From contig JAUXYP010000001.1 in assembly GCA_030694265.1 (NCBI GenBank), forward strand, positions 124,001-188,000: a stretch of 64,000 bases of DNA. Reading direction: 5' to 3'. A program made the position numbers and the translations under genes. This DNA comes from Sulfuricurvum sp. (lineage in GTDB: Bacteria > Campylobacterota > Campylobacteria > Campylobacterales > Sulfurimonadaceae). Position 1 is the first letter of the stretch, and each line of letters opens with the position of its first letter. Positions 20,408-25,411 of this stretch are shown here, in pieces. Under the pieces are notes generated by a model. It was not told the origin of the DNA, did no database searches, and saw nothing but the letters and a program-made list of their open reading frames with translations.

Positions 20408-20542
20408 GCAGATCCCTTAGAAAATATTATTCTATTCTAAGAAAGTTTTCCTAAAGAAGGGCTAAGGCGTTAATCTTTGGTTAATGGCAATTTTAATGTT
20501 TCATGTTACACTTATCAGCTATATTAATGCAAAAGGGCTTTT

Positions 20543-20752
20543 ATGTATCGGTTGTTTTTTGCACTATTAATGATGACTTTAGGAGGATTGACTGCTTTTG
20601 GAATGGGCGATGAGATTCATGAACCCTCATCGCTAAGGGCGCAAGAAGGAAAAATAGTTTATATCCCACTCCCGCCTGCTATGAGTCTTCTAAATGAGTC
20701 AAAAATTCAACAAGATGATCAAAATAATACAGGTCATGGAAAAGCAAAATGA
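20543..20752 (+). CDS. Small secreted protein, first gene of metal locus
   Basis: 69 aa. Signal peptide about 1-20 (LFFALLMMTLGGLTAFG), mature part of about 48 residues, rich in Gln/Asn and ending HGKAK. No recognised domain. Its TGA overlaps the ATG of the TolC-like gene (ATGA), so it belongs to the metal-resistance transcript. A possible -10 TATATT lies at 20520-20525. Function unknown; a periplasmic metal-binding or pump accessory role is only a guess. Confidence 0.65.
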   Translation: MYRLFFALLMMTLGGLTAFGMGDEIHEPSSLRAQEGKIVYIPLPPAMSLLNESKIQQDDQNNTGHGKAK

Positions 20753-22089
20753 AGAAAGAAATTCTTTATTCATTTATAACTCTCTTCGCTCTTTGCGGCT
20801 GTTCAACGATTTCTCAAAACGAGGTGTTTAACGGCGTAAGAGAAGAGACGTCTAAAAACCTTCAATGGATTAAAACACCGCAAGAAGCCGCGATTGTTGA
20901 TGAAAATGTGAATGACCTACTCTCTCAACCTCTAAGTCAAGACAATGCGGTACACATTGCCCTCATCAATAAGCGTTCATTGCAGCAAATGTATGAGCAG
21001 ATCGGACTTTCTCAAAGTGAATTGGTGCAAGCGGGATTAATGAGTAATCCATTATTGGGCTACTCGATAGGACACGGTGGCGGTGTAACGAGATCGACTT
21101 TGAGTCTTGATGTGGCATTGTTGGATATTCTTTGGATACCGCTTCGCAGAGAACTCGCAGGTGTAGCGCTGGAAGAGACTAGATTTCGTGTGGGAGATGA
21201 GGTTCTTAAAACAGTTAGAGAGGTTAAGAAAGCTTACATCGATGCGCGTATAGCTCAAGAAAAAGTAGCTTTGTACGAAAATTTATTGAAATCGCATGAA
21301 GCATCCATCCAGTTGGCAATTCGTCAGCATACAGCCGGGAATCTCTCAAAACGTAATTTACTCAAAATGCAAGATACTTATGCTCATGCACGTTTGGCAG
21401 CCATGGATCTTAATCGTGAAAATGCGATGGCGCGTGAAACACTTAACCGAATTTTGGGTGTTTATGGGAATCAAACGAAGTACACATTAGAGAATACACC
21501 TCTGGAACTAGGCATAGCACTATTGGGTGCTAATGGGTTGGAAACGAGAGCCATTCACAATCGTCTGGATATGAATGCCGCAATAAAAGCCGTTGATTAT
21601 GCTGCACTTGAGGCAGGGTATACGCAAAATACCCGATTACTTAATGAGATGGAACTCTCAGTCCAAAGTGAAAAAGAGACTGATACACAGAGGTTTAACA
21701 GCTTCGGTATCAAAATTCCTATCCCTATTTTTGATTTTGGGCAAGGGCGTGTTGGGAAAGCGCAATCGATGTACAATCAAAAGGTGCATCGTCTCTATGA
21801 AGTAGCGGTGAATATTCGATCCCAGGTACGAGAATCGTATGCTCAGTTGCGTTATGCTTATGATAAAGCGGTCGAAATAAAGGAAGTAATTCTCCCCGTA
21901 AATCAACAAATTTTAGAAGAAACGAAGCTGTTTTATAATGGAATGCTAGATGGTATTTACGAACTTTTAGAAGATCAGCGCCGTTACAGTGAAGCTAAAA
22001 TGCAATCACTAGTATTTGTGGGTGAATATCACAAGGCGCAAGCCGAGTTAGAGTATGTATTGGGTGGTGATAATAATGGGGCAAAATAG
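20749..22089 (+). CDS. TolC-like outer membrane efflux lipoprotein
   Basis: 446 aa. Lipobox LFALCGC with lipidated Cys about residue 18. Two outer membrane efflux protein repeats of long helices (AVHIALINKRSLQQMYEQIG at about 65; DARIAQEKVALYENLL; ending AQAELEYVLGG) as in CusC/TolC proteins. It forms an outer membrane exit duct. No RND pump or membrane fusion gene is adjacent, so it must use a partner encoded elsewhere or a non-RND one. Overlaps the multicopper oxidase gene by 14 nt. Confidence 0.85.
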   Translation: MKKEILYSFITLFALCGCSTISQNEVFNGVREETSKNLQWIKTPQEAAIVDENVNDLLSQPLSQDNAVHIALINKRSLQQMYEQIGLSQSELVQAGLMSNPLLGYSIGHGGGVTRSTLSLDVALLDILWIPLRRELAGVALEETRFRVGDEVLKTVREVKKAYIDARIAQEKVALYENLLKSHEASIQLAIRQHTAGNLSKRNLLKMQDTYAHARLAAMDLNRENAMARETLNRILGVYGNQTKYTLENTPLELGIALLGANGLETRAIHNRLDMNAAIKAVDYAALEAGYTQNTRLLNEMELSVQSEKETDTQRFNSFGIKIPIPIFDFGQGRVGKAQSMYNQKVHRLYEVAVNIRSQVRESYAQLRYAYDKAVEIKEVILPVNQQILEETKLFYNGMLDGIYELLEDQRRYSEAKMQSLVFVGEYHKAQAELEYVLGGDNNGAK

Positions 22090-23410
22090 ACGAGATTTTT
22101 TAGGATTGGGTGCAGCCTTGCTAGCAACGGCTACTTTAGCTAAAAATGCGAAAGCAGAAGAAAAAAATCATTGTGAAACACTCCCTAAAAATCGGCAGTT
22201 AACACGTGTAGAAGATCCAAAACGTGTTCTTTCGCCTGCTACGATGATTACCCAATGTGAGGGTAAAAGCTATAATCCTGTCGTGACACTCAATGGTTGG
22301 ACTTTGCCTTTTGAGATGAAAGAGGGCGTTAAAGAGTTTCATCTTATCGCGGAACCTGTTGTGCGTGAGTTTGCTCCCGGTATGGTGGTCAATTGCTGGG
22401 GATACAATGGTACCTCTCCCGGCCCAACGATCGAAGCGGTAGAAGGAGATCGTGTCCGTCTGATTGTCACCAATAAACTTCCTGAACACACAACAATCCA
22501 TTGGCATGGATTGATACTTCCAAACGGTATGGATGGAGTAGGGGGACTTACTCAACCGCAGATCGCTCCCGGAGAAACATTTGTGTATGAATTTACGCTG
22601 CTACAAAGCGGTACGTTCATGTATCATCCTCATGCGGATGAAATGGTACAAATGGCGATGGGGGCCATGGGGATGTTTATTATTCATCCTAAAAATCCAA
22701 AAGAGCACCGCGTTGACCGTGATTTTTGTTTTTTACTCTCCAGTTACGACATCGCTCCCGGTACCTATACGCCCAATCCCTCAACTATGACCGAATTTAA
22801 CCTTTGGACGTTCAACTCCCGTGTATTCCCTGGGATTGATTCGATGAATGTGCGGCAAGGAGATCGTGTACGTATCCGTGTGGGGAATCTCACCATGACA
22901 AACCATCCCATCCATATGCACGGGCATACTTTTGAAGTGACGTGTACTGATGGCGGATGGGTGCCCAAAAGCGCACGCTGGCCTGAAGTAACTACGGATG
23001 TGGCCGTAGGACAAATGAGAGCCATAGAATTTGTGGCTAAGCATGAGGGTGATTGGTCTTTGCATTGCCACAAGTCTCACCATACGATGGGACCGATGGG
23101 GCACAGTGTTCCCAATATGATTGGGGTAAAACAAGATGATATAGCCGAAAAAATCAGTGATTTACTGCCGGATTATATGTATATGCCCATGGGTAAGGGC
23201 GGCATGGCAGAAATGAGTGATATGGCAGATATGGGGATGGCTTTACCCGAAAATACTTTGCCAATGATGAGCGGCCAAGGTCCGTTTGGTCCTATTGAAA
23301 TGGGGGGAATGTTCACCCTTGTTAAGGTCCGTAAAAATCAGCCTAAAGGAGATTACTCTGATCCGGGATGGTATGCCCATCCAAAAGGGAGCGTGGCTAC
23401 TAAAAGATAA
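22076..23410 (+). CDS. Tat-exported multicopper oxidase
   Basis: 444 aa from the ATG at 22076; the earlier ATG at 22055 would push the Tat motif inward. RRDFLGLG at residues 5-12 is a Tat signal. Copper ligands: HWHG (about 141), YHPHAD (184), HPIHMHGHTF (277) and HCHKSHHTMGPM (329), the last giving a type 1 copper with axial Met. There are only two cupredoxin domains with a short link, so it looks like a two-domain oxidase. A Met-rich stretch near 360-400 suggests cuprous-ion oxidation in the periplasm, as in CueO. Confidence 0.9.
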   Translation: MGQNRRDFLGLGAALLATATLAKNAKAEEKNHCETLPKNRQLTRVEDPKRVLSPATMITQCEGKSYNPVVTLNGWTLPFEMKEGVKEFHLIAEPVVREFAPGMVVNCWGYNGTSPGPTIEAVEGDRVRLIVTNKLPEHTTIHWHGLILPNGMDGVGGLTQPQIAPGETFVYEFTLLQSGTFMYHPHADEMVQMAMGAMGMFIIHPKNPKEHRVDRDFCFLLSSYDIAPGTYTPNPSTMTEFNLWTFNSRVFPGIDSMNVRQGDRVRIRVGNLTMTNHPIHMHGHTFEVTCTDGGWVPKSARWPEVTTDVAVGQMRAIEFVAKHEGDWSLHCHKSHHTMGPMGHSVPNMIGVKQDDIAEKISDLLPDYMYMPMGKGGMAEMSDMADMGMALPENTLPMMSGQGPFGPIEMGGMFTLVKVRKNQPKGDYSDPGWYAHPKGSVATKR

Positions 23411-23482
23411 AAGGGTGATTTAAGGGTAAATATGGATAATTCGATAATGGTTATTATTTTTATTTAAAAGGTTTTTAATATT

Positions 23483-24541
23483 ATGGAAGCACTCTTAGAA
23501 GCATTTTGGGGATTAAGTGTTGATATGGGCATGTATATCCTTTTTGGTCTATTGGCTGCGGGCGTTTTGCATCAGTTGATACGTGAAGAGTGGATACAAA
23601 AACATCTGGGAAAGAATACACATGGGAGTGTATACAAAGCGGCGTTATATGGAACGCCTTTGCCATTATGTTCCTGCAGTGTTATCCCTTTTGCCGCTAC
23701 ACTGCGTCGCAATGGTGCATCAAAGGGTGCAACCCTTTCTTTTTTGATCTCAACACCGATTACAGGAATAGATTCGATTTTAGCAACTTTTGGGATGTTT
23801 GGAGGAGTATTTACCTTCTATCGCGTTGGCAGTTCGGTTATCATTGCCATCGCAGCAGGATTGCTGATGAATATTTTTGAGCCAAAAGAGTTGGAAAAGC
23901 CAAAAAAGGCTTTCTCTTTTAGTGCAGCCGCACCTATTTCCTCTCCAAAAGTTATAGATAAAAAACAAAAGAAATTCTCGCTGTATGATGTATTTCATTA
24001 TGGTTTTGTAACACTTTTGGGAAGTTTTAGTAAGCCTCTATTTTGGGGATTGTTCATTGGAGCATTTATCACAGCAGCAATGCCCACAAATTTACAGCAA
24101 TTTTTTGGTGATAATCGTTTTCTTGGATATATTATTGCAGTAGCGATCGCGGCACCGATGTATGTCTGTGCTACGGCATCTTTGCCAATTGCGGCATCGC
24201 TTATTCTCGCAGGGGTTTCCCCTGGAGCTGCATTTATCTTTTTGAGTGCGGGACCTGCGACCAATACGGTCACGATGGGAGTCGTTAAATCGATGCTTGG
24301 AATGCGTGCATTGCTTATCTATCTTGGTGTGATTATGGGGGGAAGCGTATTTTTTGGTGCGCTGATCGATATAGGATTTGATACGTTAGCGGTGAATATA
24401 AGTGTCGATATGCAAGAACATCATGGTTGGATACAAGAGGGTGCCGCGGTCATTATGCTGGGCTTGATCGCATGGAATTTTGTGAGCGGATGGTTTATAA
24501 AGAAGGATAAAAGTTGCAGCGGCGGATCGTGCTGTTCATAG
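23483..24541 (+). CDS. SO_0444-type Cu/Zn efflux permease
   Basis: 352 aa polytopic membrane protein of the DUF318/YraQ permease group, with about 8 membrane helices. Conserved PLCSCSVIPFAATLRRNG at about residues 55-72 and STPITGIDS just after; a second half with VAIAAPMYVCATASLP and SAGPATNTVTMG. The C-terminus is Cys-rich (CSGGSCCS), a likely metal site. Members of this group are named for copper/zinc efflux. It follows the oxidase by 72 nt. Confidence 0.82.
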   Translation: MEALLEAFWGLSVDMGMYILFGLLAAGVLHQLIREEWIQKHLGKNTHGSVYKAALYGTPLPLCSCSVIPFAATLRRNGASKGATLSFLISTPITGIDSILATFGMFGGVFTFYRVGSSVIIAIAAGLLMNIFEPKELEKPKKAFSFSAAAPISSPKVIDKKQKKFSLYDVFHYGFVTLLGSFSKPLFWGLFIGAFITAAMPTNLQQFFGDNRFLGYIIAVAIAAPMYVCATASLPIAASLILAGVSPGAAFIFLSAGPATNTVTMGVVKSMLGMRALLIYLGVIMGGSVFFGALIDIGFDTLAVNISVDMQEHHGWIQEGAAVIMLGLIAWNFVSGWFIKKDKSCSGGSCCS

Positions 24542-24568
24542 AAAAGACAGTTTAAAAAAGGAAATGTC

Positions 24569-24691
24569 ATGATACAAAAGTTATTTTTATTACTCATATT
24601 AGCTGCAATGTCGTTTTCAGCAGACACAAATACAAGTCAAAGTAAAGTCACAAAAAAAGTCTATCCGAGAGGTACTATAGCCACCCATTGA
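24569..24691 (+). CDS. 40-aa secreted peptide after the permease
   Basis: Too short for ordinary gene callers. ATG at 24569 preceded by AAAAAAGGAAATG; the product has a signal peptide (residues 1-18, LFLLLILAAMSFSA) and a 22-residue mature part with Thr/Ser/Lys and the ending VYPRGTIATH. It lies 27 nt after the permease stop, same strand. No domain recognised; it may be a real small periplasmic protein or the remains of a longer gene cut by the convergent neighbour. Confidence 0.5.
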   Translation: MIQKLFLLLILAAMSFSADTNTSQSKVTKKVYPRGTIATH

Positions 24692-24709: not shown

Positions 24710-25285
24710 TTATATTTTCTTCCGATACCAGAATGCAAAAGCCGCAATGGTCCCAAGATGTCCTAATGCCATGTCTTTTTGCGCATCCCATTGATCCCCT
24801 TGTGTCCCTAAAAATGCAGTTCCCAATTCTGCATGGGTAACTTCCGTAGCGAGCCACTCTATGACTTCATACACCCCAGAAGCAGCAATAAGAAAGAAAA
24901 ATGTGAATAAAAATGCGAAGTGTTTTGATTTGAATAAACTAAGGAATAGCTCATAAAAGGGTAAAAACATCAAAAATCCAAATAGAAGGTGGATAAGCCG
25001 ATCATAATGATTGCGTTCAAAGCCAAAAAAATGAGTAATAGGGGAAAATAAGGGCATTTCGCTGTACGTATAATGCGAACCGATACTGTGCAAAACAAAA
25101 AAGATAAAGAGCATACACATACTTATAGGTGAAAAATGGATACGGCGATCGGCCCAGATAATAATCGGAATTGCGATAAAAACCATGATATTTTCAAGCC
25201 ACCAGTCATCACGGTATGATGGGTTAACGGCCAATAGCATCCAAATAATGAGGTAGAGTGTAAAAAGCATAGGTTTGAGTTTCAT
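24710..25285 (-). CDS. DUF2238 (YjdF-like) integral membrane protein
   Basis: 191 aa from the ATG at 25285. The frame is open further upstream, but that part is the antisense-free reading of tRNA-Asp and is not protein. Five to six membrane helices; motif HYDRLIHLLFGFLMFLPFYE and GVYEVIEWLATEVTHAE with GDQWDAQKDMALGHLGTI are the DUF2238 hallmarks. Function unknown. It begins 49 nt after the tRNA-Asp gene with no clear terminator between, so it may be read from the tRNA promoter. Confidence 0.8.
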   Translation of the reverse strand: MKLKPMLFTLYLIIWMLLAVNPSYRDDWWLENIMVFIAIPIIIWADRRIHFSPISMCMLFIFFVLHSIGSHYTYSEMPLFSPITHFFGFERNHYDRLIHLLFGFLMFLPFYELFLSLFKSKHFAFLFTFFFLIAASGVYEVIEWLATEVTHAELGTAFLGTQGDQWDAQKDMALGHLGTIAAFAFWYRKKI

Positions 25286-25334
25286 GGAAGAATGATAGCA
25301 TACAGATATGATAAAAAAGGAAGGGTGTAAAAGG

Positions 25335-25411
25335 TGGCGCAGCCGACGAGACTCGAACTCGCGACCTCCTGCGTGACAGGCAGGCGTTCTAACCAACTGA
25401 ACTACGGCTGC
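25335..25411 (-). tRNA. tRNA-Asp (GUC)
   Basis: 77 nt with encoded CCA. Acceptor GCAGCCG pairs with CGGCTGC; anticodon stem CCTGC/GCAGG with loop CTGTCAC gives anticodon GTC. Last of four tRNAs in a minus-strand cluster. Confidence 0.95.

Follow-up and report, generated by a model that had tools for sequence, protein, structure and literature searches.

A TolC-type channel gene paired with a copper oxidase gene in Sulfuricurvum: evidence for a conserved gene pair and a candidate route of copper detoxification

TolC proteins are familiar as the outlets of energised pumps, and it has long been an open question by what route copper crosses the outer membrane once it has been oxidised in the periplasm. 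Both issues meet in a locus of the sulfur-oxidising bacterium Sulfuricurvum sp. (positions 20543-24691 of the 64,000-nt stretch of DNA analysed, here called the window), where a TolC-type gene lies beside a multicopper oxidase (MCO) gene. CusCBA-type systems encode a resistance-nodulation-division (RND) permease and an adaptor together with the channel, but neither gene was found within the window. What, then, does this channel serve? We find that the TolC-MCO pair is conserved in two phyla, Campylobacterota and Pseudomonadota, and that the locus is composed of two units: a core of three genes in overlapping frames (s1, TolC and MCO), and an add-on consisting of a permease and a small peptide, s2. 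A check of the open reading frames (ORFs) of the window left the original prediction of a TolC channel, a copper oxidase, an SO_0444 permease and two tiny secreted proteins intact, with all five genes on the plus strand and their coordinates unchanged:

20543..20752, plus strand: s1, a 69-residue secreted protein that overlaps TolC by 4 nt and matches no family
20749..22089, plus strand: TolC-type outer-membrane lipoprotein (OEP domain; structure model with CusC as best Foldseek match; in a clade of its own)
22076..23410, plus strand: two-domain MCO of the twin-arginine translocation (Tat) type with a Met-rich segment, assigned from domains, ligands and model
23483..24541, plus strand: predicted Cu/Zn efflux permease of the SO_0444 family, the add-on unit (NF033936 above cut-off; adjacency counts)
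24569..24691, plus strand: s2, a 40-residue secreted peptide with the tail YPRGTIATH, linked to the permease and with relatives behind it in other loci

The pairing was assessed in a wider sample consisting of the best 80 of at least 575 confirmed related genome stretches. Over the best-matching segment these loci, most of them from Pseudomonadota, share 62-84% identity with the query. In 78 of them TolC is the gene immediately upstream of MCO; 77 were recognised by script, and L100, where the gap is a little longer, was added. In the remaining two (L043 and L108) the contig stretch begins at MCO; in L113 the TolC match is split into two pieces. Up to 5 kb downstream, the 80 loci carry genes for CusF-like proteins (55 loci), DUF411 (22), CopD (11) and CopC (10). 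TolC also directly precedes the copper oxidase in all five plasmid stretches inspected, three of which are on plasmids typed as conjugative. In the class of the source organism, the MCO occurs in 9 of 397 genomes and 2 of 68 genera. A small secreted ORF with the exact 4-nt overlap with TolC was found in 35 of 84 loci; eight loci with a TolC match but no clean TolC frame were dropped, in many others the nearest small ORF is further off or missing, and the alpha- and beta-proteobacterial forms of s1 are often longer and rich in His or Met.

Family scans with Pfam and NCBIfam support the assignments of the larger genes. The TolC-type protein (446 residues) has the lipobox ALCGC and scores 94.6 bits against OEP (cut-off 22). 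The MCO has Cu-oxidase_3 (142.4 bits) and Cu-oxidase_2 (96.1 bits) domains and falls short of the CopA/PcoA model TIGR01480 (172.4 bits versus a cut-off of 478.95); ATG 22076 (MGQNRRDFLG) is a likelier start than 22055. The original description of a Tat-exported oxidase with a Met-rich loop stands with regard to the loop (13 Met within residues 345-412) and to a twin Arg kept in 8 of 8 aligned relatives, albeit the Tat models score below their cut-offs (15.2 versus 22.7 and 13.2 versus 16.7 bits). The permease passes NF033936 for SO_0444 Cu/Zn efflux transporters (345.3 bits, cut-off 300), which places it in that family and predicts Cu/Zn efflux activity. The two small proteins are without family matches, s1 at E values up to 1; s1 has a signal-peptide-like N-terminus and contains 2 His, 5 Met and no Cys. 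Its overlap with TolC has the sequence ATGA, and TolC and MCO overlap by 14 nt.

The structure model of the TolC-type protein, made from a 51-sequence alignment with 19 invariant columns, has a predicted local distance difference test score (pLDDT) of 86.0 and shows two barrel-strand pairs together with two helices of 66 residues. With its OEP domain, barrel strands and long helices the modelled channel has the TolC fold. Its best matches among Protein Data Bank (PDB) structures in Foldseek were CusC (template modelling score, TM, 0.72), a TolC model and SilC, all with TM of about 0.7 at 15-17% identity, and its sequence gave no match to PDB sequences at E values up to 0.01. The MCO model, from a 26-sequence alignment, reached a pLDDT of just 66.2; it has two cupredoxin domains, with the N-terminus and the Met-rich part not resolved. 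Five of its six best structure matches are two-domain MCOs. Twelve expected copper-binding residues are invariant in 26 of 26 sequences, their assignment to copper sites following what is established for MCOs. The first domain has the motif HPH and lacks the Cys, and HxH pairs occur in both domains, so that the oxidase is modelled as a two-domain type with a type-1 Cys in the second domain only. It is also better conserved than the channel, with a median identity to the window copy of 69% versus 30% (69 rows, L041-L119).

The genome of the source organism encodes 8 OEP proteins and three RND sets with an OEP gene near each; contig C11 has two additional RND matches, both weak. Its sole CusA/CzcA-type pump above the cut-off (966 bits) comes with its own CusB-like adaptor, its own TolC (397 residues) and a two-component system. 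The CusA/CusB pair whose presence elsewhere the original prediction had raised as a check thus exists and has a TolC of its own, although it could use the one described here in trans. Among the 27 genomes of the genus with the MCO, four lack a CusA/CzcA pump that exceeds the curated cut-off (G078, a close relative, rated 100% complete; G062, 97%; G112, 88%; G108, 81%), and in G110 such a pump is present as contig-end pieces only. Of the 80 wider loci, 22 have an RND permease match in the flanks retrieved, and a CusA/CzcA pump over the cut-off was found in 33 of the 40 genomes given; among the other seven, L063 is a near-threshold case and L088 a split one, which leaves five proteobacterial cases (L062, L064, L073, L098 and L105). 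A strict dependence on a CusA/CzcA pump is ruled out by the genomes that bear the module without such a pump, together with the CusA/CusB set that has its own TolC. As a separate observation, the third RND set of the source genome, on contig C9 (about 285515-288765; L162:4516-7766), encodes its pump as two half-size genes of 529 and 553 residues with an OEP gene nearby, and half-size RND ORFs of about 520-536 residues occur in at least eight other genomes of the genus.

In a TolC tree of 102 rows made by a quick method, 85 MCO-linked TolCs fall on one side of a branch against 17 other OEPs, with a Shimodaira-Hasegawa-like approximate likelihood ratio (SH-aLRT) support of 99; several of the 17 are long branches, so their internal order is unsure. 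Judged by this tree, MCO-linked TolCs are a clade of their own, apart from RND-linked TolCs. TolC and MCO distances are correlated (r 0.825 over 85 loci, with 0 of 999 permutations as high, and 0.723 over 69 loci of L041-L119), although shared ancestry alone could produce this. The locus thus resembles CusCFBA and other RND tripartite pumps in having a TolC fold nearest CusC and SilC and CusF-like genes near many copies, but differs from them in the lack of an RND permease or adaptor in the unit and in the separate clade of its TolC. The earlier claim that the channel goes with the oxidase, and not with an RND pump, is borne out by the pairing in two phyla, the TolC clade, the separate TolC of the CusA/CusB pair and the module-bearing genomes without a CusA/CzcA pump over the cut-off. 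A copper island in G106 (L150:50-12590) combines both arrangements: a CusCBA-like set with its own TolC stands directly before CusF-s1-TolC-MCO, with two TolC genes side by side, and the island continues with genes for a haem-binding-like protein and a CopA-like ATPase.

A precedent for an oxidase and an outer-membrane channel without a pump is PcoA-PcoB of Caulobacter vibrioides, with the Cop/Pco systems: the MCO and the channel are encoded in genes that overlap by four bases, no RND component takes part, and there is a disordered His/Met-bearing element (PMC12509749). Our locus shares these traits in having overlapping genes, no RND component and a small element of this kind. PcoB, on the other hand, is a 12-stranded beta-barrel, and its disordered His-bearing segment is needed for function and for the stability of PcoA (PMC12509749). 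In our locus the channel has a TolC fold in place of such a barrel, s1 as a gene of its own supplies the element, with only 2 His and 5 Met in the window copy, and the MCO scores under the cut-off of the CopA/PcoA model. Because of the TolC-fold channel and the separate small gene, the unit may work like PcoAB yet is no member of that system.

Published genetics are available for a homologue, cueO (Aave_1810) of Acidovorax citrulli, and for the next-numbered gene there, tolC (Aave_1811). The published cueO qPCR primers translate to TNHPIH, present in 22 of the 26 aligned MCOs, and CHKSHH, present in all 26 as CHKSHH or CHKAHH, and in 76 of the 80 loci the spacing of their best sites is 187 bp, equal to the length of the published product (184 bp in one, elsewhere in three). 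Motifs and spacing place Aave_1810 in this MCO subfamily. The tolC primers did not match the TolC genes of our set (best sites with at least four mismatches), and Aave_1811 is therefore linked through its next-numbered locus tag alone. In that study, the copper limit of strain pslb65 fell from 6.4 mM to 2.8 mM without cueO, and from 6.4 to 5.6 mM, a small effect, without tolC; in pslbtw14 loss of cueO lowered it from 2.8 to 2.4 mM and loss of tolC was without effect (PMC11052375). A larger effect is cited there for FC440, which did not grow without tolC at 3.75 mM as compared with 7.5 mM for the wild type. Copper induced both genes in pslbtw14, whereas in pslb65 tolC expression was lowered at 2 mM and raised at 4 mM. 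The authors treat cueO and tolC as parts of separate systems, Cue and an unknown pump (PMC11052375). Bradyrhizobium tolC and copA mutants were also considered as homologue genetics and set aside, since tolC loss there affects several metals and the gene is probably not of this family.

Taken together, the balance of the evidence tips towards a PcoA/PcoB-like periplasmic copper detoxification, in which a TolC-fold lipoprotein replaces the PcoB beta-barrel and no dedicated RND pump takes part. The oxidase would use oxygen to convert Cu(I), bound via the Met-rich segment, to Cu(II), and copper would then exit through the co-encoded TolC trimer, with s1 (and CusF where present) helping as a copper-binding or docking partner. 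Independently, and upstream of the oxidase/TolC step, the permease would carry Cu/Zn from the cytoplasm to the periplasm. Ligand residues and homologue genetics give good support to oxidation by the MCO; the passage of copper through TolC, the role of s1 and the absence of an energised partner are what we infer. We favour this reading because of the 78 of 80 pairings, the RND matches in the flanks of just 22 of 80 loci, the TolC clade, the CusA set with its own TolC, the module-bearing genomes free of such a pump, the invariant ligands, the CusC-like fold, the A. citrulli genetics and the PcoAB precedent. We offer more tentatively the possibility that the channel works without any energised pump, being loaded and gated through oxidation by the MCO and through copper bound to s1 or CusF, which would make it a widespread oxidase-coupled exit in Campylobacterota and Pseudomonadota.

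Several points weigh against the detoxification scheme. The 80 loci are the closest of at least 575, and distant ones may differ; the kinship of s1 across the phyla is judged from position and a loose alignment; the loss of tolC had little or no effect in two A. citrulli strains; some RND match is present in every genome searched; and CusF is elsewhere the partner of an RND pump. Since weaker RND matches occur in all genomes, drug-type pumps could partner TolC in trans. The main rival reading sees in this TolC a conventional outer-membrane factor which would dock with an RND or other pump encoded elsewhere and share only its regulation with the oxidase; E. coli TolC, for example, serves several pumps. 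With a TolC fold whose nearest match is CusC, ubiquitous RND matches and CusF-like genes accompanying the module, this is a serious possibility, but a doubtful one given that all three RND sets of the source genome have an OEP gene nearby, that the MCO-linked TolCs fall in a separate clade, that the module of G106 adjoins a CusCBA set with its own TolC, and that several module-bearing genomes have no CusA/CzcA pump over the cut-off.

A second alternative is that TolC mainly anchors or stabilises the oxidase and s1 at the outer membrane without being a copper conduit, oxidation alone being sufficient for detoxification. The greater conservation of the MCO speaks for it, as do the reports that cueO loss matters far more than tolC loss in A. 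citrulli (PMC11052375) and that the disordered PcoB segment stabilises PcoA (PMC12509749). We consider it improbable, as the TolC model retains both barrel strand pairs and the long channel helices, and 19 columns are invariant over 51 sequences.

The place of the permease in the preferred scheme, as an independent add-on, was examined in 41 genomes of the genus, with the MCO counted at E values up to 1e-60 and the permease at up to 1e-40. Each was found in 27 genomes (29 copies of the MCO), and both in 21. The permease adjoins the MCO in 8 of these 21, seven times within about 80 bp and in G116 with a lipoprotein gene between; in G130 each gene is at a contig end and adjacency cannot be judged, and in G057 and G045 the two share a contig but are more than 1.5 Mb apart. 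At one and the same LemA/tRNA site, G092 has the permease without the module and G051 the module without the permease, and no permease was found within 5 kb downstream of the MCO in any of the 80 wider loci. Gene order is conserved for TolC-MCO but not for the permease. Adjacency counts, the G092/G051 sites and the wider loci rule out the permease as a core part, and the original proposal of a single machine in which the permease passes metal on to the channel or the oxidase is left without support and very unlikely, despite the position of the permease next to the module here and in seven other genomes and the co-induction by Cd and Cu of SO_0444, TolC and other genes in Nitratiruptor (PMC3219624, PMC10092412). 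The Nitratiruptor cluster differs in that it is reported to contain a cytochrome c and a likely RND gene besides a TolC, with an oxidase that shows a separate response, and SO_0444 of Shewanella oneidensis, of the same family as the window permease, is needed under Cu and Zn stress.

The two tiny proteins, described at first as bracketing the locus, are both present but are unlike things, s1 being coupled to TolC and s2 following the permease. Co-occurrence of s1, TolC and MCO in related loci and the recurrence of s2 behind the permease are both beyond chance. Peptides like s2 are clearly found behind the permease in L140, L142, L143 and L146; L141 and L158, of which the latter lacks the MCO, gave weak matches, and L144 and L145 gave none. 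The tail recurs behind the permease as YPRG(T/N)I.TH, weakly also at the permease locus without MCO (L158).

With regard to s1, a CusF-like gene lies 5' of it in 9 of the 14 loci L140-L153, which come from the genus and a sister genus, and all four such genes tested were above the Pfam cut-off, whereas no separate CusF is listed in the window locus or its four nearest relatives. The window s1 (20543-20752) itself has a CusF-like start (...GMGDE...H, compare the CusF genes of L144-L149) followed by an s1-like remainder. The CusF gene may have been lost, its signal sequence left fused to s1.

A small exported protein directly 5' of a copper-oxidase operon is also a feature of CutFOG of Rhodobacter capsulatus; there a stem-loop lies in the gap between the genes (PMC9973294), whereas s1 overlaps TolC. 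A role of s1 as a CutF-like regulator was rejected, because it has no match to DUF2946 or any other Pfam family at E values up to 1 and contains no Cys. In some proteobacterial copies of the module, CutF-like ORFs do precede s1: secreted Cys/His-rich proteins resembling CutF are encoded 5' of s1-TolC-MCO in beta-proteobacteria (L037:4427-4960 and L038:4585-5013), the former scoring 20.6 bits against DUF2946, under the cut-off of 23.7. This suggests translational copper sensing in these beta-proteobacterial modules.

Upstream of s1, two short elements were noted:

20469..20484, plus strand: candidate operator GTTAATCTTTGGTTAA, 59 bp before s1, with module-linked copies in the genus
20499..20513, plus strand: conserved TTTCATGTTACACTT, a possible promoter core, identical in four of the five nearest loci and with one change in the fifth

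A wider form of the 16-bp box GTTAWTNTTNGRTTAA lies upstream in 8 of the 14 loci L140-L153. The box has a single copy in the source genome and 29 copies in the 41 genus genomes, versus 7 for a reversed control, and 18 of the 29 have an MCO gene downstream, at a distance of up to about 2.1 kb and with matching orientation. Among the 11 others, two precede s1 or CusF/s1 on other contigs, one is at a contig edge beside genes like the module neighbours in L151, and eight do not fit a link to the module, most being by genes with no evident link. An operator shared with the CusCBA set of the source genome was rejected, since the box was found neither there nor elsewhere in that genome. In G106 the box also precedes genes for a Met-rich secreted protein, a TolC and an HlyD-type protein (L170:2019-4804), a possible second target. 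A promoter scan gave 8 sites versus a mean of 12.8 in shuffled background, i.e. not above background, and terminator-like sites numbered 8 versus a mean of 4.1. Beyond s2, the mechanical start of a DUF2238 ORF (24710-25396) enters the tRNA-Asp gene (25335-25411), the first of four tRNA genes, and the true start must therefore sit further in.

In conclusion, the pairing may be an overlooked copper-handling route, as judged from a literature check of mainly open-access papers. Current annotation treats the three genes separately (hypothetical protein, TolC family protein, copper oxidase), whereas they can be read jointly as s1-TolC-MCO. Finding a TolC associated with a copper oxidase across two phyla and also on conjugative plasmids, and retained in genomes where no CusA/CzcA pump above the cut-off was found, makes the exit of copper across the outer membrane after its oxidation a testable matter.

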